Shown here piece by piece: positions 39,430-53,963 of a stretch of 64,000 nucleotides of DNA (positions are counted from its first letter, which is position 1; each line of letters opens with the position of its first letter). The stretch is from Oscillospiraceae bacterium (GTDB lineage: Bacteria; Bacillota; Clostridia; Oscillospirales; Ruminococcaceae). The stretch spans positions 1 to 64,000 of the forward strand of contig JAAVIC010000017.1 in NCBI GenBank assembly GCA_014799385.1. The letters run 5' to 3'. A program made the position numbers and the translations under genes. The notes under the pieces were generated by a model, which was not told where the DNA came from, did no database searches, and saw only the letters and a list, made by a program, of their open reading frames with translations.

Positions 39430-39672
39430 TTAAATCTGCGATTTCGGAAATGATTCATTGGATTTTCTTATCTATCGCCTCCTTTAACTAACCGCTCTGC
39501 CTGTCTGCATCAGTGAGAGCCGCGTTTGTTTTGTTGTTCTTATTTTACCACATTCGATTTTGGATTTCAATAATTATTACAAAATTGTAACCGATTGTTA
39601 CAGAATTGTAACCTTTTTGTTACGCCATAATTTTCCGGTCTATTTTTTTTAATTAAAATGCGGTAAAATCTG

Positions 39673-39701
39673 TTGACAAAACTCTCTGATTATGTTATAA
39701 T
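39673..39701 (+). promoter_or_regulatory. Promoter of GTPase-Hsp70-vWA operon
   Basis: TTGACA (39673-39678), exactly 17 bp, TATAAT (39696-39701). No other promoter this strong was noticed before 53654. Confidence 0.85.
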
Positions 39702-39731
39702 TATGATGTACGAGTTTGCTTTTAGATATGT

Positions 39732-41720
39732 GTGGTGATACGAGTGAACACTGGACTTGGTTTTTGGATATGTGTTATATTAATATGTATAGTGGGATTT
39801 TACCCGCTGGTTAAATATGTAATCCCTGCGCTACTTACCGTGGCGGGGTCATTGGTCGTGGTTTTCGCGCTGGTTGGATTGGGCGTGGGCATCGTCAAGG
39901 CGATTATCAACTTCAGCAAGGCGATCAAGTATACTTCCGCGCGGCGCGAAATGCTGTATCAGCTTAAGAGTATTTATACGGCGGATCTGGTTATACGCGA
40001 CCACCCGGTCATATTCACTATGAAACGCAAGGACACGCTCCACAACGCTTTCAAGGTAGATGATGAGTATCGTCAGATCAACGGTTTGGAAACGCGTGAG
40101 CTGCGTTCGGAATTTCCGACGGCGGATTCTTACTGCTATGAGGATATCGCGGCGAAATCTTACTTTTTCGGTCCCGCGATAGAGGATACGTGGACGATCA
40201 TCAAATCCGCGTTTCAATACAATTTCAAGACATTGCCGAAGTTCAGTCATAGCAGCATCGGGATTCTGAAAGTGACGCTGAACATCTGGACGGCGGTTGA
40301 GATTTTCATCATCGCGACTTTCGGTTCCATAGCTACATTGGTTCTGGCACTGTTCTTTCTGGTAGTGTTTCTTGCAATCGAGGTGCCCGCGCTGATTCTG
40401 GCGGGAATCTCACTGTTTTTCGAGAATCTGTACTATTTATCGCATAGAATTACCTATCGCTGTCCCTCCTGCAAAAATAAGTACAACATTCCGCGCTACG
40501 TGTGCCCGAATCCCAACTGCGGGATCGTTCACAAAAGACTGCGCCCGGGACTGTATGGTATCCGCAAGAGGAAATGCGTCTGCGGACGCGTGATTCTTCC
40601 GCTGAGGGCGCGGGCTGGAGGGGCGGTTTACGATACGTATATCCCCGACTTGCCGATGGTGGGGCAATCCAAACATCGGCGGCGGTTGGAATATCGTGAT
40701 ATTCCCGGAAAATGCCCGTTATGTGGAGTAGACTACACGGCGGGGCTTACCAAGCCCACCAGTATCGCGCTTATCGGCGGAGCTTCTGCCGGAAAGACCA
40801 CGTTTAAGGTGGCGTTCAGCTATGTTTTTCTGGACGAGGCGGCTGTTACGGCGGGTCTGGATTATAGCTTTCCCGATAAGCAGAGCGAGAACGAATACGA
40901 GAAATCCATACGGTATTTTAAGGGGTTGGATATAATTCCGGCAACGAACCGCGGCGCGCAGACAGATATTTCCACATTCAGCTTTTCGCTGGAAAACAAA
41001 GGCTTTACCGCGTCAAGAATGATACATATCTATGATATGCCGGGAGAGGTTTTTGAAACGGGCGACGCGAAAGAGGGTTGGCGGAATTACCAATTCACCG
41101 AGGGTATGGTGTTCCTTATCGACCCGTATTCGATGCCGGAAATTAAATCGAACCATTCGGATGAAATAGTAGGCGGCAGTATGGGAATCTGCACAATGGG
41201 TATGAACGATCTGGTGAACTCACTGATAAATACTCTGCGAAATGAAAAAGTGCGGAAAAAAGGCGGAAAATTCGCGATTCCGGTGGCGCTTACCATTAAC
41301 AAGGTGGATTCGCTGGCACTGAAGCGTATGTGCGGCGGCGATGCGGTAGAGGCACTGATGAAGGGCTGTCCCGAGGTATTTGGTGAGGACTACTTTATGG
41401 CGGTGGATTATGTGTGCCGTTGTTTTCTCGCAAAGAACAACGGAATGGGATTTATTGCCAACCTTGACCACAATTTCAGCACGGTGCATTTCTTCTTCAG
41501 CTCGCCGATGGGATATATTCCCAAAAGCACGCTTACGCGGTTTCGCCCGGTGAACGTTCTGCCGGTAATGCAATGGATGATGCGCAAGGCGGATTCGGAG
41601 CTTGCGCGGGTTTGGAAACCGGAGATTCCGATTCGGGATCTTACCGAATCCGAAAAGCAGCTCTATAAAACACATCCCGAATATTATGAGCAGTTTGTCG
41701 AGCCGCTCATTATGAATTAA
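39732..41720 (+). CDS. Membrane-anchored zinc-ribbon GTPase
   Basis: 662 residues. Hydrophobic segments at ~8-28, ~31-55 and ~190-235 anchor it. Zinc knuckles follow from ~244 (CPSCKNKY, CPNPNCG, CVCG, CPLCG). The GTPase domain has P-loop GGASAGKTT near 348, G3-like YDMPGE and G4 INKVD. The combination resembles TRAFAC 'double-GTPase' proteins of predicted conflict systems; that link is from memory. Start is uncertain: GTG 39732, 39735 or 39744, without a clear ribosome site; the promoter leaves a short leader. First gene of the operon and its likely membrane anchor. Confidence 0.8.
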   Translation: MVIRVNTGLGFWICVILICIVGFYPLVKYVIPALLTVAGSLVVVFALVGLGVGIVKAIINFSKAIKYTSARREMLYQLKSIYTADLVIRDHPVIFTMKRKDTLHNAFKVDDEYRQINGLETRELRSEFPTADSYCYEDIAAKSYFFGPAIEDTWTIIKSAFQYNFKTLPKFSHSSIGILKVTLNIWTAVEIFIIATFGSIATLVLALFFLVVFLAIEVPALILAGISLFFENLYYLSHRITYRCPSCKNKYNIPRYVCPNPNCGIVHKRLRPGLYGIRKRKCVCGRVILPLRARAGGAVYDTYIPDLPMVGQSKHRRRLEYRDIPGKCPLCGVDYTAGLTKPTSIALIGGASAGKTTFKVAFSYVFLDEAAVTAGLDYSFPDKQSENEYEKSIRYFKGLDIIPATNRGAQTDISTFSFSLENKGFTASRMIHIYDMPGEVFETGDAKEGWRNYQFTEGMVFLIDPYSMPEIKSNHSDEIVGGSMGICTMGMNDLVNSLINTLRNEKVRKKGGKFAIPVALTINKVDSLALKRMCGGDAVEALMKGCPEVFGEDYFMAVDYVCRCFLAKNNGMGFIANLDHNFSTVHFFFSSPMGYIPKSTLTRFRPVNVLPVMQWMMRKADSELARVWKPEIPIRDLTESEKQLYKTHPEYYEQFVEPLIMN

Positions 41721-41742
41721 AAATACAGAAAGCGAGATTGCT

Positions 41743-42603
41743 ATGGACGAGAAATTTCAGGCGATTTTCGCGGGCGAGGAGCTTCCGGATAATGAAGGAA
41801 TGCCCGTGATAAATATCCCGATTCAGGCGGAGAGTCCGATTTCGGAGTCTGTGCCGATGCCTACGAATGAAACGGAATCCCAGGCGGAATCCTCAACAGA
41901 AACTCCGCGTGAGGAATCCCCTATTGAGGAACCACCGACAAAGGGAAACGATTCGGCGATCTCCCCGGAGGAATCGGCGGAATCCGAAGAGGACAACAGT
42001 CTTGAACGTATGTGGGAATGCTTTGACGAGCTGAACTGCGCGAACGATGCGTCAAACGCGAAGCTCTCTGCCATAATGTCGCAGCTCGATTCGATGAGCC
42101 GTGAGATCTCACGGCTGGCGGCTTACGACAAGGCGGTCGATACTCTGAAAGTATCCCTCGCGGCAAATCAGAACTCCGAGAAGAACCTCTACAAGGAGGT
42201 CGAGGAGTACAAGAAAGATACATATTTCACGAATATCAAGCCTTTTTTGATGTTCCTTGTGGATATGTTATGTGAGATGAAGAAATCTTTGTCTCAATAT
42301 CGTGATGACAAGGAGGAGTTTATCGCCGAGAACAACGAGAACTCCTATAATGAAATTGTCGGCTTGCTTGAATTTTTTATCGGTTCGTTTGAGAATCAGA
42401 TGAAGATTCAAGGCGTGGATATTATCTCGTTTGAGGCGGATTCGGACTACATCACGGGGCAGCAGCGGATATCCAAGACCGTCAAGACCGACGACCCCGC
42501 GAAAAACGGCAAAATAGCGGCGGTGCTTTCCGACTGCTATATGTACGGAACGACCGTACTTCGTCCCGCAAAGGTTACGGCATATAAGTTAGAGCTTGTT
42601 TAG
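41743..42603 (+). CDS. GrpE-like nucleotide exchange factor
   Basis: 286 residues. Residues ~20-85 are a disordered acidic Ser/Glu/Pro-rich region. Residues ~85-215 are long helices, as in the GrpE dimer stalk. The C-terminal part (GVDIISFEADSDY...GYxxx-like YMYGTTVLRPAKVTAYK) matches the GrpE beta-wing with its VLRPA signature. It would release ADP from the Hsp70 proteins encoded next. Not the housekeeping grpE: extra acidic N-terminus and different context. The stop codon lies inside the left end of a palindromic insertion. Confidence 0.75.
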   Translation: MDEKFQAIFAGEELPDNEGMPVINIPIQAESPISESVPMPTNETESQAESSTETPREESPIEEPPTKGNDSAISPEESAESEEDNSLERMWECFDELNCANDASNAKLSAIMSQLDSMSREISRLAAYDKAVDTLKVSLAANQNSEKNLYKEVEEYKKDTYFTNIKPFLMFLVDMLCEMKKSLSQYRDDKEEFIAENNENSYNEIVGLLEFFIGSFENQMKIQGVDIISFEADSDYITGQQRISKTVKTDDPAKNGKIAAVLSDCYMYGTTVLRPAKVTAYKLELV

Positions 42604-42751
42604 TATCTCGAGGTGCGCAGATTTCGCAGCAGATTTTGCGGATTTCGAGGCGATTTTTCGCAGACATACTTGATGTATTTCAAGAAAAATCAACGAAGAA
42701 ATACGCAAAAGCTGCAAGAAAGATGCGTGCGGAGAGATGCTAAACAGGCTC
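42592..42751. mobile_element. Palindromic MITE-like insertion
   Basis: GAGCTTGTTTAGTATCTC and GAGATGCTAAACAGGCTC are terminal inverted repeats with 16 of 18 matches over 160 bp. Inner pairing includes GATTTTTC/GAAAAATC. It supplies the last codons and stop of the GrpE-like gene and separates it from the Hsp70 gene. Confidence 0.7.
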
Positions 42752-42807
42752 TTAGGGTAATTTCCCGATTGGAAAATTCAGATATTTTATTTTTGGAGGA
42801 TAATCTA

Positions 42808-44457
42808 ATGAGTGAAACTACAACAACCACATTCGGCATTGACCTTGGCACGACCTATTCGTGCATCAGCTACCTTAAAGACGGACACCCCACGGTTTGC
42901 GTGAACGTTGAGGGCGAGCGTACCACACCCTCTGTGGTGAGAATGCTTACCTCCGACCCCGAACCCGTTGTCGGAAAGACCGCAAAGGATACCTCGATTA
43001 TTTATCCCGATGACACGATTCAGTTTGTAAAGAGCAAAATCGGTAAGGTAGAAACGTTTGAAATCGGCGATGAAAGCAACCGCCGCACCGTTTCTCCGGT
43101 TCAGGTTTCGGCGGAGATACTCAAAAAGCTGGCGGCGGACGCTTCTCAGTACACGGGAATGACCGTTAAGGACGTGTGCATTACCGTTCCCGCGTATTTC
43201 GGCAACAACGAAAAAGCCGCTACAAAGCAGGCGGGAATAGACGCGGGTCTTAACGTTATCAGCATTGTGGAAGAGCCTACCGCGGCGGCGTTCTACTACC
43301 TCTGCGAACGTGACGATACGGACGCGACCGTGTGCGTATATGACCTCGGCGGCGGTACATTCGATGTTACCGCGTTGGAGAAGAACGGCACGGAGATACG
43401 CGTTCTCACAACTCAGGGCGACCACGATCTCGGTGGTAAAAACTGGGACGCGGAGCTTATCAGCTATGTTGAGTCGAAGTTCCGCGAGGAAACCAATCTT
43501 GACCCCGAAGAGGAGCTTGACGTTGACTTCATTCAGGATTTGCAGCTCAAATGCGAAGAGGCGAAAAAGCAGCTTACATTCTCGCAGACCGCTTCCATCG
43601 CTATGAAGCTGGACAACAAGCACAAGGCGAATATCACCGTTACGCGTGAGGAATTTGAGGACATTACCTCGGCTTTGCTGCAAACCTCTATCGACCTTAC
43701 TTCCAAGGTTTTTGACGAAGTAGAGGCTTCGGGAAAGAAAATCGACAAGCTGCTTTTGGTAGGCGGTTCGAGTATTATGCCGCAGGTAAACGCTGCTGTT
43801 CAGGAGGCTTTCGGAAGCCGTGTTGACGAGATTCTCGTCAACGACCCGAACGAATCCGTTTCCAAGGGCGCGTGCATTTTCTGCGCGTGGAGCTTGCTGC
43901 ATTCCACACCGGCTGAGTCTGCGGAGTCGGGCGAGCCGACACTCCCCGGAGAGGTTATCGGCACTTCCACCAACGAGGAAACGGGCGAAACCATTATCAC
44001 CCTTGCGGGCACGGACGGCGGAACACGAGAGGTTGTTGTTCCCACAACATTGGGCGGCAGTATCAAGGACATCATCACCATTGCCACAAAGAGCTTCGGA
44101 ATCCAGACGTTTGTAGGTGATGTGGAGAAGATCACCAATCTCATTATCAAAGACCAGCAGCTCCCCGCAACATTTGAGCAGGAGTTCGGCACTCACACCG
44201 ACAATATGAAGGATGTCAGCATTGTACTGTATCAGTCAGAGGTTAAGGATACCACCTGCGATATGGAGTGCGGCACGTTGATCTGCGAATCGGTGCTGTC
44301 GGGTCTTCCAGATAATCTCCCGAAGAACTCCCCCGTGCTTATTCACATTGAACTGAGCAAGGAAGGTATTATCGACATTACCGGCTCGTATCAGGGTACT
44401 CCGCTTGAGGGTTGCCTGAATACAAGCTACGCGGAGGGCGTAGGAACCAAAAATTAA
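42808..44457 (+). CDS. Hsp70 (DnaK-like) chaperone without lid
   Basis: 549 residues. ATPase motifs GIDLGTTYSCISY, phosphate-2 YDLGGGTFDVT and adenosine LLLVGGSSIMPQV lie within residues 1-380. A substrate-binding beta-domain-like region follows (~450-540: QQLPATFEQEFGT, SIVLYQSEV, KEGIIDITG). The helical lid of true DnaK is absent. It probably acts on partners within this operon rather than as a general chaperone. ATG 42808 has GGAGGA; the upstream open frame runs through the palindromic insertion and is rejected. Confidence 0.9.
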   Translation: MSETTTTTFGIDLGTTYSCISYLKDGHPTVCVNVEGERTTPSVVRMLTSDPEPVVGKTAKDTSIIYPDDTIQFVKSKIGKVETFEIGDESNRRTVSPVQVSAEILKKLAADASQYTGMTVKDVCITVPAYFGNNEKAATKQAGIDAGLNVISIVEEPTAAAFYYLCERDDTDATVCVYDLGGGTFDVTALEKNGTEIRVLTTQGDHDLGGKNWDAELISYVESKFREETNLDPEEELDVDFIQDLQLKCEEAKKQLTFSQTASIAMKLDNKHKANITVTREEFEDITSALLQTSIDLTSKVFDEVEASGKKIDKLLLVGGSSIMPQVNAAVQEAFGSRVDEILVNDPNESVSKGACIFCAWSLLHSTPAESAESGEPTLPGEVIGTSTNEETGETIITLAGTDGGTREVVVPTTLGGSIKDIITIATKSFGIQTFVGDVEKITNLIIKDQQLPATFEQEFGTHTDNMKDVSIVLYQSEVKDTTCDMECGTLICESVLSGLPDNLPKNSPVLIHIELSKEGIIDITGSYQGTPLEGCLNTSYAEGVGTKN

Positions 44458-44473
44458 CGCAATAATATGTATT

Positions 44474-44497
44474 GCGGCAAGCAGCACCGCTTGCCGC
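44474..44497 (+). repeat. Intercistronic hairpin between two Hsp70 genes
   Basis: GCGGCAAGC/GCTTGCCGC, 9 bp, loop AGCACC, no T-run. It could stabilise mRNA ends or set the expression ratio of the two Hsp70 genes. Confidence 0.6.
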
Positions 44498-44534
44498 GAT
44501 ACTGTATTTCAGCGTCACAATGGAGGAACAAATT

Positions 44535-46634
44535 ATGCCGCGTATAGTGGGTATCGACCTTGGAACGACCTATTCCGTGATTGCGTGCGTTGATGATGTC
44601 ACCAAAATGCCAAAAATAATACCGAACAAATACGGAAAATCGGTCACTCCCTCGGTTATCGGATTCCGCGAGGACGGGTATGTAATTGGCGAGGACGCGA
44701 AAGCTATGGAGGAAATGGGCGATGTCAATACAGCGTCGTTTTACAAGCTCCATATGGGCGACCATAGCTACAAATACAGCTTTTTCGGAAAGGAATACAC
44801 GGCGGCGGATCTGTCGGCGATGTTTATGCGGCGGCTTATCGAGGACGCGGAAAAATCTGTCGGAGACGTGATTTCCAAGGCAGTGATTACCGTCCCCGCG
44901 TATTTTGAGGACGCGGCGAGGAACGATACAATAAATGCGGGCAGATCAGCGGGACTGGAGGTCCTGAACATCATCAACGAGCCGACTGCGGCGTGCGTGG
45001 CTTACGGGTTAAGCGGCGGTGACAAGAATGTTCTGATTTACGACCTCGGCGGCGGGACGTTTGACGTTACGATTGCAAAGGTGACGGGCGATTCGATTGA
45101 CGTTATCGGAACTATCGGACATCATCGGCTTGGCGGCCGCGACTGGGATTCCGCCGTTGCGGACTGGCTGACGGAGCGGTTTGAGAGCGAAACCGGCGTG
45201 GATTTGAGCGCGGATTCCGAAATGGCGGCGGAGCTTATGGTGAAAGCCGAGAATGCCAAAAAGCAGCTTACAGCCTCTGTGGAAACCGATATTACGGTGG
45301 ATGACGGAACGCGGAAACGCAAATTCAAGCTCACGCGCGGCGAATTTGAGGACCTTACCGTGTATCAGTTGGGGCTTACTACCGACCTTATCGCGCGGCT
45401 CTTTAAGGACACGGGACTTAGTTGGAGCGATATTGACGGAGTTGTGCCTGTGGGCGGCTCTACAAAGATGCCGATGGTGAAAGACTTTATTCTTTCAAAT
45501 GGGGTTAAGATTCTAAGCGGAGTTCACCCCGATGAGGCAGTGGCAATCGGTGCGGCTGTTCAGGCGAATATCGGGCGCGTCTGCGCGACTCTCCCCGGCA
45601 CGGAAAGTCCGAAAAGCTCCCTCGGAATGAAGCGCGAGGAACTGAATCTCACGCTGATGCCCGGGGCGCGTATGATAAGCGATGTTATTCCTCACTCGCT
45701 GGGAATGATTATCGAAAATGCCGAGGGGACGCGGTATATCAACGATATTATGATTCCCCGAAACACAAAATGCCGTGACGCGCGGAAAACCAAGCGCCGC
45801 GAGCTTTCCGTAAGCAGCGAAAAAAGCCGCAATCGTCTGGATATCTATCTCCTTCAGGGCGAAAGCAGCTCCCCGGAGAAATGCACGGTCGCGAAAAGGT
45901 ATGTATTCCGCGATATTGACTATGTTGACGGCGGAAAATCGGTCATTGAAATCTCGTTCGCGCACACCATAAACGGGACGATAGACATTAAGGCGATACA
46001 GACGGAAACAGGTCTGGAGCTTCCGTTTTGCGAGGAGTCGATTCCCGAGGATATGTCGTGGGTGAAAAAACCTCCGCGCGGAGCGGCTGTGGGGGCGCTT
46101 GTGATGGCTCTCGACCTTTCGGGCAGTATGCGCAGGGAAATCGCGGGAGTGAAGTCCATAGACGCGGCAAAAGTGGCTATGAAGGGCTTTGCGGAGAAGT
46201 TTCGCGGAACGGATATCGCAATCGGAATCATCGGTTTTTCCGATGCGGATATGGTCATGTGCCGTCCCACCACCGATATGAAAAAAGTTTTTGCGGCGAT
46301 AAACGAGCTTTCCATCGGAATGACGGGCGGCGGCAATTACTGCAATCCGCTGACTTCAATGTTCGAGGAGCTGCGGCGGTTTGACTCCGACCCGTTTTTA
46401 TACGCGATAGTCCTTACGGACGGCGAATGGTACACCAATGCCTGCTGCGGCGCAGCTGCAAAAAAGGCGGACTTCATAAGTCACGGAATGGACATAATCG
46501 GTATGGGGTTCGGCGATGCGGATTATGAGTTTCTGAAGTCGATTTCCACGCGCGAGGAGCTTGCGAATGTGGACGATATTACTCATCTCAGCGCGAATTT
46601 GTCCAATATCGCTAAGGAGATTCTGAACCAATAA
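44535..46634 (+). CDS. Hsp70-vWA fusion protein
   Basis: 699 residues. Hsp70 ATPase domain (GIDLGTTYSVIAC; YDLGGGTFDVTIAK; PVGGSTKMPMV), a reduced substrate-domain-like region (~385-510), then a C-terminal von Willebrand A domain from ~515 with MIDAS motif MALDLSGSM, the conserved GGGNYCNPL threonine/serine-loop region and VLTDGEW. vWA domains bind metal-dependent protein ligands. Fusion to an Hsp70 motor is unusual and suggests ATP-driven assembly or disassembly of a vWA-held complex. ATG 44535 has TGGAGGA. Confidence 0.92.
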   Translation: MPRIVGIDLGTTYSVIACVDDVTKMPKIIPNKYGKSVTPSVIGFREDGYVIGEDAKAMEEMGDVNTASFYKLHMGDHSYKYSFFGKEYTAADLSAMFMRRLIEDAEKSVGDVISKAVITVPAYFEDAARNDTINAGRSAGLEVLNIINEPTAACVAYGLSGGDKNVLIYDLGGGTFDVTIAKVTGDSIDVIGTIGHHRLGGRDWDSAVADWLTERFESETGVDLSADSEMAAELMVKAENAKKQLTASVETDITVDDGTRKRKFKLTRGEFEDLTVYQLGLTTDLIARLFKDTGLSWSDIDGVVPVGGSTKMPMVKDFILSNGVKILSGVHPDEAVAIGAAVQANIGRVCATLPGTESPKSSLGMKREELNLTLMPGARMISDVIPHSLGMIIENAEGTRYINDIMIPRNTKCRDARKTKRRELSVSSEKSRNRLDIYLLQGESSSPEKCTVAKRYVFRDIDYVDGGKSVIEISFAHTINGTIDIKAIQTETGLELPFCEESIPEDMSWVKKPPRGAAVGALVMALDLSGSMRREIAGVKSIDAAKVAMKGFAEKFRGTDIAIGIIGFSDADMVMCRPTTDMKKVFAAINELSIGMTGGGNYCNPLTSMFEELRRFDSDPFLYAIVLTDGEWYTNACCGAAAKKADFISHGMDIIGMGFGDADYEFLKSISTREELANVDDITHLSANLSNIAKEILNQ

Positions 46635-46678
46635 TGCCGTAATCGGAAACGAAGAGATTTTGTTTTGGGAGATTTTTT

Positions 46679-49630
46679 ATGGCTAACAATTATTATGAAT
46701 GGCTTGGGCTGCCTGTGGAGAACTTTGAAAACGATCCCACGGTGCTGTCTGAAATTGTTGAGAAGAAGATTGTCGAATGGCAGTCGCACAAAAAGCTCGA
46801 AATCACCAACAGGGCGTATATACACGGTCCGCAGATTCGCGCAGCCATAAGAAATCCCGAAATGTGGGAGGAGATATACCGCGAATACAAGGAGCAGGTC
46901 GATGACAACATAGCCGACCAGCTTCAACTGTTTGTGAACGATAAACTGGAAATCGCGGCGGAGGACGTGGAGACCATCGCGAAGCAGAACAGCGTCAGTG
47001 CGCGGTATGTAAAGCAGATCTGCAATTCGCTGAAATACAAGGTCGGGGGAAGCTCGGCGGTACCCGTTCCGGAATATACCATCGAGAATATGGAGCCGTC
47101 ATCATTCCGTAAGTTCAGCAGCGTACAGAAACTCATCGAGGAGCTTGGTTCCAAGAATCTTATGGAACTACTTGCGCGAACGGATGTTCTGGGTGTTGCA
47201 ATCGGCGCAAACTCCCCGAACGCGAAAGTCATTGAAACGCTTGAACAAGTCCATAAGAAGTGGATGAATGTATCCGCAACGGGCGATAAAGCCACGCAGA
47301 AATCCCATCTGGACAAGATTTACTCCGGGTTTACGAAGCATTTGAAAACCATTCCGTTTTCGGAATATATCGATTGTCTGAAGTACACTAAGGCGAAAGA
47401 GGCGCTTTCCGAGCTTACCGCGCTTAAGGTTCGCGAGCTGAGCGAAATCGCGTTTAACACCAAGGTTTCGCAGCTTTTTGAGTTCACCGAGGATCAAAAC
47501 AAGGCGCGGAGCATTCTCGCGGCATTTTGTTCCTCTAAGGGTATCGGGTATCCGCTGCCGCGCGCTATGCTGGCTATGTGTCCTTTTTGCGGGAACAATT
47601 TCGAGCGCACGGAACCGATTCAAAAAAACTGCCCCGTATGCGGTCACTCGCTGATGGTGCAATGCCCGAAATGCAAGAAGCTCCGTCATATCATTACCGA
47701 GCCGGAATGCGACGGAATCAATATCGGGAGTTTCCCGCTGCTGGAAAAGACGCTGGAATCCATTAACAAGGACTGCGATGTGTTGAGCCTTGAATCCGCG
47801 CGGGATAAGCTGAACGACCTTAAATCACGGTGGAATGGTTTCCCCGGCGCGGATAAGGCGGAGGAGCGGCTCTCAAAACTGGAGCGCGAATACGGTTCGG
47901 ACATCGCGAAAATCGCCGAGCACTGCCGCCGCAACGAGTTGTACTCCGCGCGCGGAATTATCGACCGCATCGACCGCTCGTTCCCGGGATTCAAGAGGGG
48001 ATACGCGAACGTTTACAGCTCCGTGGAATATGCTGAGGGGGAGTTTGCCGAGGCGGTGAAAAATCCCGATGTTTCGGCTCGAATCAATCTGCTGCTTGCA
48101 ATCAACGACATTGTGGCGGATTTCCCCAAGCTGAACACGGAGCTTCAGAAATATCCGATTTCGCCCGTAACGGATCTGCGCGCGGATATGGATTCAAACG
48201 CGGGCATCGTTACGCTTTCGTGGCGCTCCGAGAACAAGCCGAACAGCGTATTCTACGTGATAAGGCGCAAGACCGATACCCCCGTGGCGAACGCTGCGGA
48301 CGGCAATGAAATCGCGCGGACGCAAATGCTCTCGTTCGGGGACAACACTATCCGCGAGGGCGTGGTGTATTATTACGCGGTTTATGCCGTGCGCGGTCCG
48401 ATTGCGTCCGCTATGACAACGATGACAGAGCCGGGAACAGGGGTGATACCCGTTATCGCTCTGAAAAAGCCCGATGTCACGATTATTCCGAAAAACAGGA
48501 GTATCGACCTTTCGTGGGGCGCGGATAACGGGAAAATGCGCGTGTTCTTTTCCGACAAGGAGATCACGCAATATGACGAGGGTACGCCCGTAAGCAATCT
48601 TCTGCCCTCGGGCGCGCTTATCGAGGGTTTGACCAACGATAAGCCCTATTGGATAGCGGTTTACAAATATGTTTTATGCGGCGGAAAGGAATATCGCTCA
48701 AGACTGGCGATCTATCCGCAGATTACGCCGATAGTGCCCGTTTCGCCGCCGAGATTCCGAATCTCTCGCGGCAACAAGGACGGCGAATATATTCTGCGCG
48801 ATGAGTCGAACTCATCGGGTGACATTGTTTTGTTTTACTCGGAAACGCGCGTTGGAATTTCCGAAAACGCGGCTATCAGCTTTTCCGAAATGGAGAGCAA
48901 GGCGAAACGTCTGGACGCGTCAAAGCTCGCCGACGGTAGCTTTACGGTGGATATGGCGAGACGGAAAACAATGCTGGTTTATCCCACGATAGTGATGTCC
49001 GGCTCGTTAATGGTCGGAAATATCCTCACGCTGCAATATATCAAGCAATCCGCTGTGGACGTGAGCGTTTCGGGCAGCTCGCTGTGCATTATGCTCGATG
49101 AATTTCCCGAGGGAATGGATCAGATCATCATTTGCTACAATTTTGACGGTTATCCTATGGATTCAACCGACTGCGAGCGCGGACACAGGATAAGCGTTTC
49201 AAAGGTGAATTATCTGCGGGATAAAATCGTGCGTATCCCGAATGTGAAACAGGGGGATTATTACATCTCCGTGTTTGCGAAAAGCGGACGCGATGAAATG
49301 CTTATCGCGAACAAGCTGGCGAAACTCGCCAAAACATCGACTATCGTCTATTCGATGACAAAAACGCTTTCGGGAGTGAATATCACGCTGAAATACGAAA
49401 ATTCCGAGAGCCGCTATATTCCGCCGCTTACGTTCGCTTACGCCGAGGGAGCTGTTCCGTTAAGTAAGGAAAACGCGGCGGGATACGCGGAATTGCCCGA
49501 AATTCCCAACGCGCGCCGTTCGGAACTTATCGCCGTCAAATGCAAGCTGCCTAAAAACGCTTACGGAAAGGTGTTCTGCGCGGATTCAAGATATTCGCTG
49601 ATTGCTGAGGGTAGTATGAAACTCAACTAA
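46679..49630 (+). CDS. J-like, zinc-ribbon, FN3-like multidomain protein
   Basis: 983 residues. Residues ~1-75 (NNYYEWLGLPVENFENDPTV..) resemble a J-domain without the HPD motif, a plausible docking part for the Hsp70s. Zinc ribbons at ~300-345 (CPFCGNNF, CPVCG, CPKCKK). Helical repeat-like region ~345-490. Then at least two fibronectin III-like beta domains (~495-590 and ~595-690) and further beta-rich sequence to the end. No enzyme motif seen. Likely scaffold or sensor. GGGAG site. Confidence 0.75.
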   Translation: MANNYYEWLGLPVENFENDPTVLSEIVEKKIVEWQSHKKLEITNRAYIHGPQIRAAIRNPEMWEEIYREYKEQVDDNIADQLQLFVNDKLEIAAEDVETIAKQNSVSARYVKQICNSLKYKVGGSSAVPVPEYTIENMEPSSFRKFSSVQKLIEELGSKNLMELLARTDVLGVAIGANSPNAKVIETLEQVHKKWMNVSATGDKATQKSHLDKIYSGFTKHLKTIPFSEYIDCLKYTKAKEALSELTALKVRELSEIAFNTKVSQLFEFTEDQNKARSILAAFCSSKGIGYPLPRAMLAMCPFCGNNFERTEPIQKNCPVCGHSLMVQCPKCKKLRHIITEPECDGINIGSFPLLEKTLESINKDCDVLSLESARDKLNDLKSRWNGFPGADKAEERLSKLEREYGSDIAKIAEHCRRNELYSARGIIDRIDRSFPGFKRGYANVYSSVEYAEGEFAEAVKNPDVSARINLLLAINDIVADFPKLNTELQKYPISPVTDLRADMDSNAGIVTLSWRSENKPNSVFYVIRRKTDTPVANAADGNEIARTQMLSFGDNTIREGVVYYYAVYAVRGPIASAMTTMTEPGTGVIPVIALKKPDVTIIPKNRSIDLSWGADNGKMRVFFSDKEITQYDEGTPVSNLLPSGALIEGLTNDKPYWIAVYKYVLCGGKEYRSRLAIYPQITPIVPVSPPRFRISRGNKDGEYILRDESNSSGDIVLFYSETRVGISENAAISFSEMESKAKRLDASKLADGSFTVDMARRKTMLVYPTIVMSGSLMVGNILTLQYIKQSAVDVSVSGSSLCIMLDEFPEGMDQIIICYNFDGYPMDSTDCERGHRISVSKVNYLRDKIVRIPNVKQGDYYISVFAKSGRDEMLIANKLAKLAKTSTIVYSMTKTLSGVNITLKYENSESRYIPPLTFAYAEGAVPLSKENAAGYAELPEIPNARRSELIAVKCKLPKNAYGKVFCADSRYSLIAEGSMKLN

Positions 49631-49644
49631 GAGAGGTATCGGTT

Positions 49645-50772
49645 ATGGCTTTTTGTCCTTTTTGCTTTAACGAAATTAATTTGAAAACTTTGAATATGCG
49701 GTGTTCGTCTATCAGTTGTCTTGAGCCGGGAACAACCGAGGTTCACATTATTGACCGAAAAAAGGCGCGTGTTGACCGTCATGGTTTCGGAACGTGCGAC
49801 ATCTGCGGACGAACGACCCATAAGCTCGTCTGCGATTCCTGCGGGCATGATTTGCCTGATACGATTCGCGAGAGCGAAACCAAGATAATCTCGATTATCG
49901 GCGCAAAGGGCAGCGGAAAAAGCTACTTTGTGGCGGCGCTGCTGCGCCAGATTATGGAGGAAGGGTTATTATCCTACATCAACGATTCCTCGACAATGTT
50001 TATTTCCGATGGGCGGGAGATATACAACAAACGCTACAAAAAAAATATGGACGATGGAGTTCCTCTGGACGGTACGCGGCTTGTAACCAATATCGTGCGG
50101 GATAATCCGCCTGTGTTGGCGCAGATTACATCCGCAAAACAGCGCGGATTCGGCAAAGGAAAGAGTCTCGTGTCATACACCTACTCGTTTTTTGACGCGG
50201 CGGGCGAGAGCTTTTCCGACCCATCAGTGCTTGCGTCTATCACTCCATATATCGCGCACTCCGAGGCGATTATCTTTATCCTCGACCCGCGTCAGATCCA
50301 CGAGGTGAATAAAGCGGTTTCGGCGGTTATGCCGAAGCTGCCGCCCGTGTCGGACGATACATACGAAAATACCGTAAACAGTGTGGCGGACGTTATCCGC
50401 AACAATAAGCGTCTGGACTCGCAAAAGGCGATCAAAGTTCCGGTGTGTGTGGCTTTCTCCAAGTGGGATTTGCTTATCAACACGCCGAATCTGCTCCCGG
50501 CGGACTTTATGATCAACAATCCGAACACGTTTTCATTCCGTGGATTTAATCCCGATATTATCCGCAATTCGGGCGAGGAAATCCGGTCGCTGCTTCGGCA
50601 ATGGGCGCCCGGATTCCTTACGACCGTTGAACAGCAATTCGAGGACGTAATGTATTTCGGATTCTCGGCATGGGGTATGGGCAGTAAGGACGGACGGAAT
50701 ATCCCCGCGATTGCGCCGTTTCGGGTAGAAGATCCGTTTCTGTGGATACTTAACCGAAACGGACTTTTGTAA
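49645..50772 (+). CDS. Zinc-ribbon P-loop GTPase, soluble
   Basis: 375 residues. N-terminal zinc ribbons (CPFCFNE; CDICGRTTHKLVCDSCGHDLP). GTPase domain from ~85: P-loop IIGAKGSGKSYFVAAL, G3-like FFDAAGESF and G4-like FSKWD. Related in plan to the membrane GTPase at the operon start but without membrane spans. With the following gene it forms the GTPase/GTPase-associated pair. GAGAGG site. Confidence 0.82.
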   Translation: MAFCPFCFNEINLKTLNMRCSSISCLEPGTTEVHIIDRKKARVDRHGFGTCDICGRTTHKLVCDSCGHDLPDTIRESETKIISIIGAKGSGKSYFVAALLRQIMEEGLLSYINDSSTMFISDGREIYNKRYKKNMDDGVPLDGTRLVTNIVRDNPPVLAQITSAKQRGFGKGKSLVSYTYSFFDAAGESFSDPSVLASITPYIAHSEAIIFILDPRQIHEVNKAVSAVMPKLPPVSDDTYENTVNSVADVIRNNKRLDSQKAIKVPVCVAFSKWDLLINTPNLLPADFMINNPNTFSFRGFNPDIIRNSGEEIRSLLRQWAPGFLTTVEQQFEDVMYFGFSAWGMGSKDGRNIPAIAPFRVEDPFLWILNRNGLL

Positions 50773-50789
50773 CGAGAGGGGGAGGAAAT

Positions 50790-53654
50790 ATGGCTATCGA
50801 ACGCGCAATTTATGCCTCGCTGCCTTTGGGAATCGAAAAGGACAGCGCGGGATTTCAATTTTTTTCGTATACCGAGGGGTTTCTGCATATTCTTGACGCG
50901 GACAGCTCGGGGATTGTTCGCGGATTGGCTGAAAACGGCTACACCAAGCATAGCGGAAACGAATGGCTGACGGACCTGCCTCTCGACTGCGATATGAGCA
51001 CGGTAAATGAGAACGATTTTCGCGTGACGATTCCCGAAAGTGTGGCAGCGGCGAATGCTGCGGAAATCCGCGCGCGCCGATTCAATCCGTACTCTTTTTC
51101 TTACAGACCGACAGAGATTGGCGGCGCGGAGATGGGCGTGTTTTCGTTCGGTAAGCTGATGGGCATCGACTGGAGCGGAGCGCGTCCCGGAAATATTTAT
51201 CTGTATACCGTGATTTGCGGCAAGGATGATATCAAATCCGCGCCGATTATGTATCACTCCTCTCCAACCGTGTGCTGTGACATTCCCAGAGGCGTGTTTT
51301 ATCCCGAAACAGGAAGTATCTCAAAGCCCGATTTCCTAAAATACTCCGACACTCTCGATGATGAATATGATGTTGCCCCTGTGGAATATTCGGCGGGGTT
51401 TGAACGGATCTCGCTCGATGATATTAAACGGTTTATCGCAGACGATGACAACCGCGAGATTCTCTGCTCGATGGTGTACGCGCTGATGGAAAACAAGGAC
51501 GGAAACATTCGGCGGAGAATCGTAATTGCGGACGAGCCGGAGAACGTTATGATGTGGATTGCGGCGATTTCGTTTGTTTTTCCGCAGGAAAATCTGTACG
51601 GACTCAGCTTTTCGACTTACACGCATGATCCGGCGGATTTTGACATAAACGGTGTGTTCGTTCCCGCGAAAAACGGGTGCTTTCCGTCATCGCGTTCGGG
51701 GTATGACTATAATTCCGCGCGCGGAGCATACGCGGTTTACGACTTCGGAGTGGGCGAATACGCTCCCGAAGTGAATCCACGTGAGTGCCTGTTTACGGAC
51801 GCGCTGAAAAGCAAGAGCGCCGCGCCGCTGATGGAGGCTTACAAGACGTTTATTGCGCGGCACTCGAATTATCGCGGCTTGGATTCCTATTACGCAAAGG
51901 GGTACAGCTTCTATGCGTTTATAACTGGTAAGATGAAGTACTCTCTTGATGACGCGGTTGATTTCGCCGAAAAGTACGCGCTCTCCGACGATAAAAAGGA
52001 GCTTTTGATCAAGATTCTGAACGATTTTGAATCCATAAGCGAAAGTCCCGAAAATCTCCACACCGCGCACGGGTATATGAAATTCTGCTGCGATAACAAG
52101 GTTTCAACGCGTGAGGAAATCAACAAGTTTTTCGTGGAAAAATACAACGAGATATTCCGCGCGGATTCTCCCGACGATGTTCTTCAGGCGGCGGAAAACA
52201 AGTGTATGAAAATGTGCGGAATCACCGACGAGGATTTGGGGATTCTGTTTGTGAAGGTCAACGGCACGGCGGAGCTTGCGCGGTTTGCCGCGTCCACGAA
52301 AAGCGTTCGCAGGCTGATGTACATCAATAACGCGGTGCTGCTGAATGCAGCCAAAGAGAGCATAGCAATCGGAAGCGAAACCAACGAGGGAAAAATCGTG
52401 ACCGTAACGATTGCGCGTATGATAAACGAGGATTCGGAGAAGTCCGCGAAACAAGCGGAGGATTATATCCACCAATGTTGGGGATACATTAAGAACTGTG
52501 AATCACAAATCGGCATATGCGATTCCGTGATGGCGGCAGTTGTTCCAAAGCGGCTGGAACGCTGCGCAAAGCGGGTTCGAGGAATCGTTGCGGATATGTA
52601 CAAATCCGGGGACAGTGATGTTCGCCGCGCGGTTTTTTCCGCGAGCTCTCCGTTTTCGGAGGACTATATCACCGAGATAATTTCGCGTATCTCCTCCGAG
52701 AGGGACGTTCGTTCGCGGATTTCGGGGTCTGATGATTTCTGTTATTATGCCGGAGAAGCGATAGCGAAATATTGCGATTCCATTAAAAATATCGTCAAGG
52801 ATTCCGTGACGAATCTTCCGAAGTTGTCGGGAGATTTGAAGCCGCAGACTATCTATTCGGCGTTTGGAGTGTTAAAAACGCTGTACGAGCACTGCCCCGG
52901 GAAGATTACCGCTGTGGACTTTGAGTTTATTTACACCGAATATATCTGCGCGGTTCAGGAAAACGCGCCCGACTATATCATCGGAAAATCGCATATGGCG
53001 GCTCTTACCGAAATTCGGGATATGGTTGCCAAAACAAACGGAGATACTTATGACGGGGTTTTCGGGCTGTTTGAATCGCTGGCGCGGCTGTCCGATGAGC
53101 TGGAGTCGCCGATGGAATCAACCTGCTTCTGGTCGGCGGAGAACCTCACCTTTACCCCCATTAACGTTTCCAAAATCGAGGACGATACGCTTCGTGAAAT
53201 TTACATCAGCTCCGTGGGTAAGCTGTGCGGGCTGTTCTGGGCAAGAAACGACACGTTCCCAACGTTCTGGACGCCGGTGGAGTGCGATTCCGCAGACGCG
53301 GACAACGTTCACCGCATAATCTTCACGGCAATGTATAAAACCGCGCTGAAAGAGATGAAACACAATTCAGACGCGGCAGCGTTTGTTATAAAGTTTGCCA
53401 TCGCGCGGAAATACACGGAAGTGATTTCCACGATGAATGAATGGCTGGACGAATGTAATGTCAAGCGGAATGTCGCAGATATTCTCGCGCGGGATTGCAA
53501 AGCGAAATCCGAGCAAAGAAAAGGCTCGGACGAGGGAATTTTGTCCGAGGTGGATTTATCGGAGCTTCAAGCCGCGTTGGAAACCGTTCGGAAACATTAC
53601 GAAAAGAGCGGCGGCGGACTGCTTGGCGGAATCAAGTCGCTGTTTCGGAAGTGA
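50790..53654 (+). CDS. GTPase-associated protein 1 (GAP1)-like
   Basis: 954 residues. The N-terminal ~200 residues (MAIERAIYASLPLGIEKDSAGFQFFSYTEG..; later RPGNIYLYTVI) resemble the GAP1 N-terminal domain seen beside double-GTPases in predicted conflict systems. Residues ~205-330 hold a conserved-looking middle part (VMMWIAAISFVFPQENLYGLSFSTYTHDP). The C-terminal ~550 residues are helical with no recognised motif. It probably partners with the two GTPases. GAP1 assignment rests on remembered family features. Last gene, followed by a terminator. Confidence 0.65.
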   Translation: MAIERAIYASLPLGIEKDSAGFQFFSYTEGFLHILDADSSGIVRGLAENGYTKHSGNEWLTDLPLDCDMSTVNENDFRVTIPESVAAANAAEIRARRFNPYSFSYRPTEIGGAEMGVFSFGKLMGIDWSGARPGNIYLYTVICGKDDIKSAPIMYHSSPTVCCDIPRGVFYPETGSISKPDFLKYSDTLDDEYDVAPVEYSAGFERISLDDIKRFIADDDNREILCSMVYALMENKDGNIRRRIVIADEPENVMMWIAAISFVFPQENLYGLSFSTYTHDPADFDINGVFVPAKNGCFPSSRSGYDYNSARGAYAVYDFGVGEYAPEVNPRECLFTDALKSKSAAPLMEAYKTFIARHSNYRGLDSYYAKGYSFYAFITGKMKYSLDDAVDFAEKYALSDDKKELLIKILNDFESISESPENLHTAHGYMKFCCDNKVSTREEINKFFVEKYNEIFRADSPDDVLQAAENKCMKMCGITDEDLGILFVKVNGTAELARFAASTKSVRRLMYINNAVLLNAAKESIAIGSETNEGKIVTVTIARMINEDSEKSAKQAEDYIHQCWGYIKNCESQIGICDSVMAAVVPKRLERCAKRVRGIVADMYKSGDSDVRRAVFSASSPFSEDYITEIISRISSERDVRSRISGSDDFCYYAGEAIAKYCDSIKNIVKDSVTNLPKLSGDLKPQTIYSAFGVLKTLYEHCPGKITAVDFEFIYTEYICAVQENAPDYIIGKSHMAALTEIRDMVAKTNGDTYDGVFGLFESLARLSDELESPMESTCFWSAENLTFTPINVSKIEDDTLREIYISSVGKLCGLFWARNDTFPTFWTPVECDSADADNVHRIIFTAMYKTALKEMKHNSDAAAFVIKFAIARKYTEVISTMNEWLDECNVKRNVADILARDCKAKSEQRKGSDEGILSEVDLSELQAALETVRKHYEKSGGGLLGGIKSLFRK

Positions 53655-53656
53655 CC

Positions 53657-53690
53657 AATCCCCCGCAGGGAAATTCTCCCGCGGGGGATT
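53657..53690. terminator. Terminator shared by convergent genes
   Basis: AATCCCCCGC/GCGGGGGATT with inner GGGA/TCCC. It lies between the GAP1-like gene and the convergent TM1266-type gene. Confidence 0.75.
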
Positions 53691-53696
53691 AATTAT

Positions 53697-53963
53697 TTAA
53701 TTGGCTTGTTCATCGTATTTGACGCTTGAAAATGCGGTCTTTGCCGTAATTCCGGGAAGCCCGCCGATTTTTCCCGCAAGCGTGGATATTGTGTTCTGCG
53801 GCGCGTCAACGGCGATGCTTATGATGTGGATTTTCCGCGCCCTGTACGGGATACCCATTCTGCCGATTATGTAATCCCCATACTCGTGAAGTATCTCGTT
53901 AAGCCGCTTTACGGTCTCCGAATTTTCTACGATTATACTTATTACAGCGACTCTCGTTTCCAT
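53697..53963 (-). CDS. TM1266-family putative iron-only hydrogenase regulator
   Basis: 88 residues with ACT/NikR-like fold. METRVAVISIIVENSETVKRLNEIL and GRMGIPYRARKIHIISIAVDA match the family found near hydrogenase maturation genes. No hydrogenase gene is in this window. ATG 53963 has GGAGGTAA; own promoter at 54000-54028. Confidence 0.85.
   Translation of the reverse strand: METRVAVISIIVENSETVKRLNEILHEYGDYIIGRMGIPYRARKIHIISIAVDAPQNTISTLAGKIGGLPGITAKTAFSSVKYDEQAN

Follow-up and report, generated by a model that had tools for sequence, protein, structure and literature searches.

The closest described systems to the one studied here are the predicted conflict systems for which Kaur et al. 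2020 (PMC7159879) defined the DO-GTPases, the protein GAP1 and the GAP1-N2 class. According to the parts of that paper that describe the class, GAP1-N2 systems encode two GTPases, one of which has four N-terminal and one C-terminal transmembrane (TM) helix, as well as a variable effector, and they are associated with a multicellular habit. An HSP70 plus GrpE theme occurs in ~14% of their neighbourhoods, with an FNIII protein that usually carries a DnaJ or TPR domain and, in a subset, a second HSP70 lacking the peptide-binding domain; the DO-GTPase itself is the counterpart of MoxR in the published scheme. We analysed a stretch of 64,000 nucleotides (hereafter the window) from an Oscillospiraceae bacterium (assembly GCA_014799385.1, contig JAAVIC010000017.1, positions 1 to 64,000), in which the open reading frame listing and Pfam searches identify seven intact plus-strand genes at 39732-53654. 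This operon is a chromosomal GAP1-N2-type DO-GTPase system with the HSP70/GrpE theme, and it encodes two divergent Hsp70s, one of which carries a vWA domain in place of its lid. Its genes are, in order, with the evidence in brackets:

39732..41720, plus strand: membrane-anchored DO-GTPase (Pfam DO-GTPase2, hydropathy, motifs)
41743..42603, plus strand: GrpE-like nucleotide exchange factor (Pfam GrpE)
42808..44457, plus strand: lidless Hsp70, made of a nucleotide-binding domain (NBD) and the beta part of the substrate-binding domain (SBD-beta) (Pfam HSP70, alignment)
44535..46634, plus strand: Hsp70-vWA fusion (Pfam HSP70 and VWA_2, alignment, NBD tree)
46679..49630, plus strand: 983-aa J-like/zinc-ribbon/FN3 protein, a putative scaffold or sensor (profile comparison)
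49645..50772, plus strand: second DO-GTPase (Pfam DO-GTPase2, motifs)
50790..53654, plus strand: GAP1 (GTPase-associated protein 1) of the N2 type (Pfam)

Both GTPases match DO-GTPase2 above the curated cut-offs (41.2 bits for gene 1, 30.4 bits for gene 6). The first has hydrophobic segments at residues ~1-65 and 176-233, two CxxC pairs and the motifs GGASAGKT, DMPGE and NKVD; its hydropathy indicates about four N-terminal TM segments and none at the C terminus. The second has N-terminal CxxC zinc-ribbon pairs, lacks an N-terminal membrane segment and carries GAKGSGKS, DAAGE and SKWD. A Walker A and a DxxGE Walker B are present in all nine GTPases checked and a G4-type motif in eight of them; DMPGE and DAAGE hold the conserved Walker B glutamate that is the hallmark of DO-GTPases. 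The GAP1 gene lies downstream of a DO-GTPase gene, as is typical of the class. Its product matches GAP1-M with 33.0 bits (cut-off 24) and GAP1-N2 with 20.1 bits, below the cut-off of 24, while the homologue in the operon L061 of another genome reaches 74.4 bits; a GAP1 profile gave no match to solved structures at E 1. These matches bear out the original prediction, made from the letters of the window, of two zinc-ribbon GTPases (one of them membrane-anchored) and a GAP1-like protein, and its placing of the locus among vWA/TRAFAC GTPase/GAP1 conflict systems agrees with the kind described in PMC7159879.

The same prediction held that an Hsp70 cycle newly replaces the AAA/MoxR motor. No MoxR/AAA family matches the seven proteins above the Pfam cut-offs, but we dropped the replacement as a discovery because the HSP70/GrpE/DnaJ-FNIII theme is already in Kaur et al. 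2020 and the DO-GTPase is itself the MoxR counterpart. The operon shares with that theme the DO-GTPase pair (one with N-terminal TM segments), zinc ribbons, GAP1, an FNIII protein, and an HSP70 plus GrpE plus second HSP70. It differs, as far as the published description extends, in two components: the second HSP70 of the theme lacks the peptide-binding domain, whereas that of the window has an SBD-beta fused to vWA, and the FNIII protein of the theme is fused to DnaJ/TPR, whereas that of the window has a degenerate J-like part without the HPD motif. An NBD-only Hsp70 is absent from the window operon and present in a related one (L054).

We searched for relatives with GAP1-M as anchor in three overlapping samples, which matched 9 of 394 genomes in the order, 13 of 391 in the class and 12 of 398 in the phylum; the window's GAP1 is found in 1 of 37 genomes of its own genus. 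Among the 31 regions fetched around these matches (the window's own excluded), five or more of the other six components are present in three. L061 has the full set of seven genes, arranged as in the window; so does L054, which adds the NBD-only Hsp70 and ~1.6 kb between the membrane GTPase gene and grpE; L049 has six, without the Hsp70-vWA gene and with the membrane GTPase gene at the opposite end. The remaining 28 regions, nine of which are shorter than 15 kb owing to contig ends, comprise 11 with a DO-GTPase and 17 without a further component at E 1e-4. A second profile, built on the SBD-vWA part of the fusion, matched 158 of 189 genomes in the order of G1064, mostly through plain DnaK, and yielded L162, whose operon is complete and collinear with that of the window. 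G606 itself (L054) is the sole whole-profile match in its own order. Four of the 398 genomes in the phylum sample matched this profile at E 1e-17: the window's own, G1064 (L061), G907, where a fragment (L189) holds an Hsp70, an Hsp70-vWA and the beginning of an FN3 protein, and G1167, which has a different Hsp70-vWA family described below. A near copy of the window operon is found in L002, from a closely related, metagenome-assembled uncultured Clostridia bacterium.

The collinear operon thus occurs in three genomes of two other families (L061, L162 and L054) at 17-40% identity to the window. At 35-40% the Hsp70s are the most similar, followed by the GTPases at 27-31%; GrpE, the FN3 protein and GAP1 share 17-23%. 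If these were unrelated genes that happen to share one promoter, patchy distribution would be the only observation in favour; the collinearity at such identities and the short gaps between most of the genes refute this explanation. Because their order is kept in distant genomes, we consider the seven genes to be one system. The single-system reading had been proposed together with a gene-scatter test, and it came through that test, as the genes are collinear and not scattered.

The two Hsp70s of the window match Pfam HSP70 above the curated cut-offs (301 and 335 bits), and VWA_2 is found at the C terminus of the second (40.3 bits, also above cut-off), as had been foreseen. We aligned 12 operon Hsp70s (two each from the window, L002, L061 and L162, three from L054 and one from L049), which amount to about 10 independent sequences because those of L002 nearly duplicate those of the window. 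They were compared with 19 canonical DnaKs, namely that of the window's own genome and those of 18 of the 20 loci kept (the L054 fusion and L147, which is not a DnaK, were excluded; more canonical DnaKs were matched than loci kept and used for the alignment). The ATPase residues (D8, K70, E171, D194 and T199) are intact in 11 of the 12, the NBD-only protein of L054 having T199S, and from these residues both Hsp70s of the operon should hydrolyse ATP. R167, the DnaK residue that contacts the J-domain, is present in none of the 12 and in 19/19 canonical proteins; the corresponding position is K in the fragment L189, which lies outside the 12. The GrpE-signature loop has 15-16 residues in all 12, against 21 in every canonical DnaK. 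An expression search for the linker motif found it in 0/12 operon proteins (one of them NBD-only and thus linkerless) and in 18/19 canonical ones, the exception being the DnaK of the window's own genome, which carries the near-identical LLDVTPLS. The plain operon Hsp70s terminate shortly after SBD-beta and are thus lidless. The NBD tree separates 13 operon Hsp70s from canonical DnaK as a single clade (support 0.99), and within it the seven plain proteins, the NBD-only one included, make up a clade of their own (0.99).

According to passages in two papers on Hsp70 function (PMC8215388, PMC7289447), the invariant HPD motif of J-domains touches R167 and the linker, R167 is a key site of J-domain action, the linker is required for allostery, and HscA and HscC are Hsp70s without the GrpE signature that are thought to be GrpE-independent. 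By alignment, the canonical regulatory contacts are lost in the operon Hsp70s. Our best reading is that neither the cell's DnaJ nor, probably, its GrpE acts on these proteins. On its contig C2 the genome also encodes a canonical DnaK and a single recognisable DnaJ, and the proposed membrane-tethered switch with a dedicated chaperone set is supported in this respect.

The J-like side of the contact is degenerate as well. The 983-aa protein has two degenerate N-terminal J-like repeats, a zinc ribbon at residues ~301-339 and FN3 repeats at 502-667, and no Pfam family matches it above cut-off. A profile of four FN3-protein sequences matches solved FN3 structures (3mpc, E=2.2e-5; neogenin weakly). 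HPD is absent from 6/6 J-like/FN3 proteins (that of L049 judged from its N-terminal piece), and Pfam recognises no J-like part in the window, L061, L054 or L049. Of the predicted J-like/FN3 scaffold, the FN3 half therefore stands by profile comparison, while the J-like half lacks HPD and lies outside Pfam. The predicted GrpE-like factor was recovered by Pfam (36.1 bits, above the curated cut-off) and has a long low-complexity N terminus; because the operon Hsp70s lack the GrpE signature, it must act differently or have another target. A canonical cycle, in which the GTPases and GAP1 are folded by normal Hsp70s with the help of GrpE and a functional J-domain, would fit the joint encoding of a chaperone set and the largely intact ATPase sites. 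It is nevertheless improbable, and the ordinary Hsp70/GrpE/J cycle of the original prediction is unsupported, because the J-like proteins lack HPD, and the operon Hsp70s have no R167, no linker motif and a shortened GrpE-signature loop.

The Hsp70-vWA fusion consists of an NBD, an SBD-beta and then, in the position of the lid, a vWA domain with the DxSxS motif of a metal-ion-dependent adhesion site (MIDAS). Its SBD-beta aligns with residues 393-502 of DnaK, and the vWA matches start ~20 positions further on, in DnaK's lid region. The fusion recurs in five other operons or fragments, one being the near relative; DxSxS is present in all six operon fusions, and the later aspartate in the four that were aligned. 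The six fusions fall into two supported groups in the NBD tree (0.81 and 1.0), adjacent as drawn, the support of their joint node not being printed. We infer that the Hsp70 pair is older than the operon's spread. The sections of Kaur et al. 2020 on this class make no mention of an Hsp70-vWA fusion, and nothing further on such a fusion in this operon type was recognised in the open-licence literature; the fusion with vWA in place of the lid is an addition to the published scheme.

A second, separate Hsp70-vWA operon family was found in 17 further loci (L163-L179) of 16 of the 189 genomes, plus G1167 (L190); examples are L163:2911-14849 and L177:1-15042. The profiles of the window's families detect no DO-GTPase, GAP1, GrpE or FN3 match there. 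Complete regions contain three Hsp70 genes, one plain, one divergent and one fused to vWA (L169 and L179: ~1060 aa), together with a gene for a ~930-1180-aa protein that is weakly SrfB-like in L163 and matches no family in L177; upstream in L177 lies a gene for a phage-baseplate/type VI secretion system (T6SS)-type OB protein. Because the Hsp70s from four of these loci form their own clade (0.99), the Hsp70-vWA fusion seems to have arisen, or recombined, twice.

Other described machines share parts of this architecture. The J-like domain of Pam16, in the mitochondrial import motor, lacks HPD. Pam16 resembles the operon in placing a J-like domain in an Hsp70 machine at a membrane, and differs in being eukaryotic and having Pam18 as its partner. 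The operon has in common with DnaK-DnaJ-GrpE the Hsp70 NBD, the SBD-beta and a GrpE family member, and differs in lacking the lid, linker motif, R167, full GrpE-signature loop and HPD. The MoxR-vWA ternary systems, as outlined in PMC7159879, likewise couple a chaperone to vWA with a coordinating third protein; in the window, by contrast, vWA is fused to Hsp70 and there is no MoxR/AAA+. The CoCoNuTs (PMC11090510) are operons with a predicted role in defence, in which Hsp70-like proteins accompany TerY-like vWA proteins encoded separately; they differ in their McrBC-type GTPases and nucleases, and the sections describing them show no Hsp70-vWA fusion. No experiments on this GAP1/DO-GTPase family were found in the open-licence literature.

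We regard it as reasonably probable that the operon works as a GAP1-N2 DO-GTPase system of the HSP70/GrpE theme in which a membrane GTPase switch is served by an insulated chaperone pair. We infer from the sequences who binds whom and in which order. The switch would consist of the membrane GTPase and the zinc-ribbon GTPase, and GAP1 would read or set its state. The J-like/FN3 protein would be the sensor or scaffold that brings the Hsp70 pair to the switch. The vWA that replaces the lid of one Hsp70 may grip a partner through its metal site, the other Hsp70 being lidless. The pair would undergo ATP-driven assembly or release, reset by the operon's GrpE-like protein, and this cycle would determine the firing threshold of the GTPase switch at the membrane. 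A more specific version, to which we give rather poor odds, is an orthogonal Hsp70 machine that jointly lost HPD, R167, linker and GrpE signature, exchanged its lid for a metal-dependent vWA grip, and has its ATP hydrolysis gated by the GTPases and GAP1 via HPD-less J-like docking domains. If true, GTPases would control an Hsp70 system that is shielded from the cell's chaperone network. Catalytically intact Hsp70s without either side of the HPD-R167 contact offer a clean test of alternative Hsp70 gating, and the operon is a handle on a predicted conflict-system family.

A role in surveillance or conflict is, in our judgement, slightly better than an even bet; we favour it because of the membership in a conflict family, the patchy occurrence and the toxin- and defence-type neighbours in relatives. 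These neighbours include, 2 bp upstream of grpE, a gene whose product has a domain of the tuberculosis necrotizing toxin (TNT) family (L049:13433-14464; the words TNT, NADase and necrotizing are absent from the main text of Kaur et al.), genes for a DpdF/Cas3-like helicase (553 bits) and a NERD-helicase (193 bits) just upstream of the complete operon in L162 (L162:1-4326), and one for a WYL regulator upstream of the operon in L061. The competing view is an envelope-stress or membrane-assembly machine, in which the Hsp70 pair and GTPases mature or repair a membrane complex with no conflict role. This view gains from the hydrophobic segment of the membrane GTPase in all five relatives checked, from a two-TM protein encoded after GAP1 in two operons (L061:14949-15710 and L162:16799-17566, no Pfam family above cut-off), from the link of a DO-GTPase family protein to membrane stress in a passage of a PSP paper (PMC11237479), and from the second GTPase's match to the stress protein YcjX (E 0.03), one of many weak P-loop hits. 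Ordinary flanks, a common promoter type and purifying selection also agree with it; against L002, dN/dS (the ratio of nonsynonymous to synonymous rates) is 0.017-0.103 across the seven genes with no internal stops (gene 1 being partial in L002), by which the genes are under purifying selection and not decaying. The patchy distribution, down to GAP1 in a single congener, the neighbours listed above and the fact that GAP1, GrpE and the FN3 protein have diverged faster over long distances than the Hsp70s speak against it, and we consider an envelope role unlikely, though a fair competitor. Separately, the two-TM protein is a possible membrane output.

Several observations weigh against the conflict role or against the switch-chaperone mechanism. 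No effector was recognised among the window operon proteins, in line with the earlier statement that no nuclease, protease or pore effector is visible. PADLOC gave no convincing model for the seven operon proteins (best LmuB, 19.3 bits); on 10 flanking or linked proteins it matched something in five and nothing in five, figures for which there is no background rate, and one of the five matched proteins (L062) is not beside an Hsp70 operon. The operon had no match in plasmids (four tblastn queries), phages (one query) or viral contigs (three scans). The purifying selection relative to the close relative indicates no arms race at that scale, and the flanks of the window operon are ordinary genes, including ABC transporter genes and a TM1266-like regulator. 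On the mechanistic side, the grpE gene is retained although the operon Hsp70s lack the signature loop. By profile alignment, the J-like repeats have a weak J-domain similarity (P 4.2e-4 and 4.4e-4; control segments 0.73 and 0.38), and a profile of the first repeat gave three weak matches to solved structures, none of them named a J-domain. Finally, the canonical controls were drawn solely from related clostridial-type genomes.

The operon is accompanied by the following signals:

39673..39701, plus strand: sigma-70-type promoter TTGACA-17-TATAAT with an extended -10 (perfect consensus, 17-nt spacer)
53672..53690, plus strand: terminator-like hairpin, with convergent genes on both sides
39573..39613, no strand assigned: two 20-nt palindrome-like direct repeats at 21-nt spacing, a possible operator
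44469..44502, plus strand: 14-bp hairpin that separates the two Hsp70 genes and is unchanged in L002

The predicted layout of one promoter, seven plus-strand genes and a terminator is confirmed for strand, order and gene identity, the hairpin being only terminator-like; as a class, such sites are not enriched in the window (17 against 19.9 in shuffles). The window contains 11 perfect sigma-70-type promoters (0.05 expected), so that the operon's own is strong and ordinary, and we dropped it as a special sign. There is a single GTTACA-N(2-6)-TGTAAC core in the window (expected 0.00); the repeats at 39573..39613 could be an operator of the operon or belong to the divergent lipoprotein-like gene. 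All seven predicted genes are present, but the starts of both Hsp70 genes were corrected: the first frame is open from 42613, its likely start being ATG 42808, and the fusion probably starts at ATG 44535, each preceded by GGAGG. The strong hairpin at 44469..44502 may adjust the ratio of the two Hsp70 proteins.

We compared the surroundings with those of other genomes of the genus in an empty-site test. The flanking genes include what we take to be a pyrophosphatase and Maf. Maf is present in 38 of 41 genomes. By tblastn, twenty Maf-side regions (four of them with <5 kb downstream of Maf) have no match to any of the seven operon genes or to a TM1266-like gene, and their right-flank matches are confined to paralogue-level ABC transporter and two-component proteins (25-38% identity). 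The outcome was the same by tblastx on 13 of these regions, where short scattered pieces of L114 sharing one summed E-value were taken as noise. Because the sequence after Maf differs from that of the window, no clean empty site was shown; nothing supported a large insertion extending to an MreB-like gene of the same contig. The TM1266-like gene, a putative iron-only hydrogenase system regulator (53697-53963, minus strand), has its own perfect promoter and is convergent with the operon.

Within the operon, ~150 bp of the gap between grpE and the first Hsp70 gene (42608-42757) are a genome repeat with three further copies at 96, 79 and 78% identity. The stretch that holds it is ~135 bp shorter in L002, a pattern of a small repeat element inside the operon.

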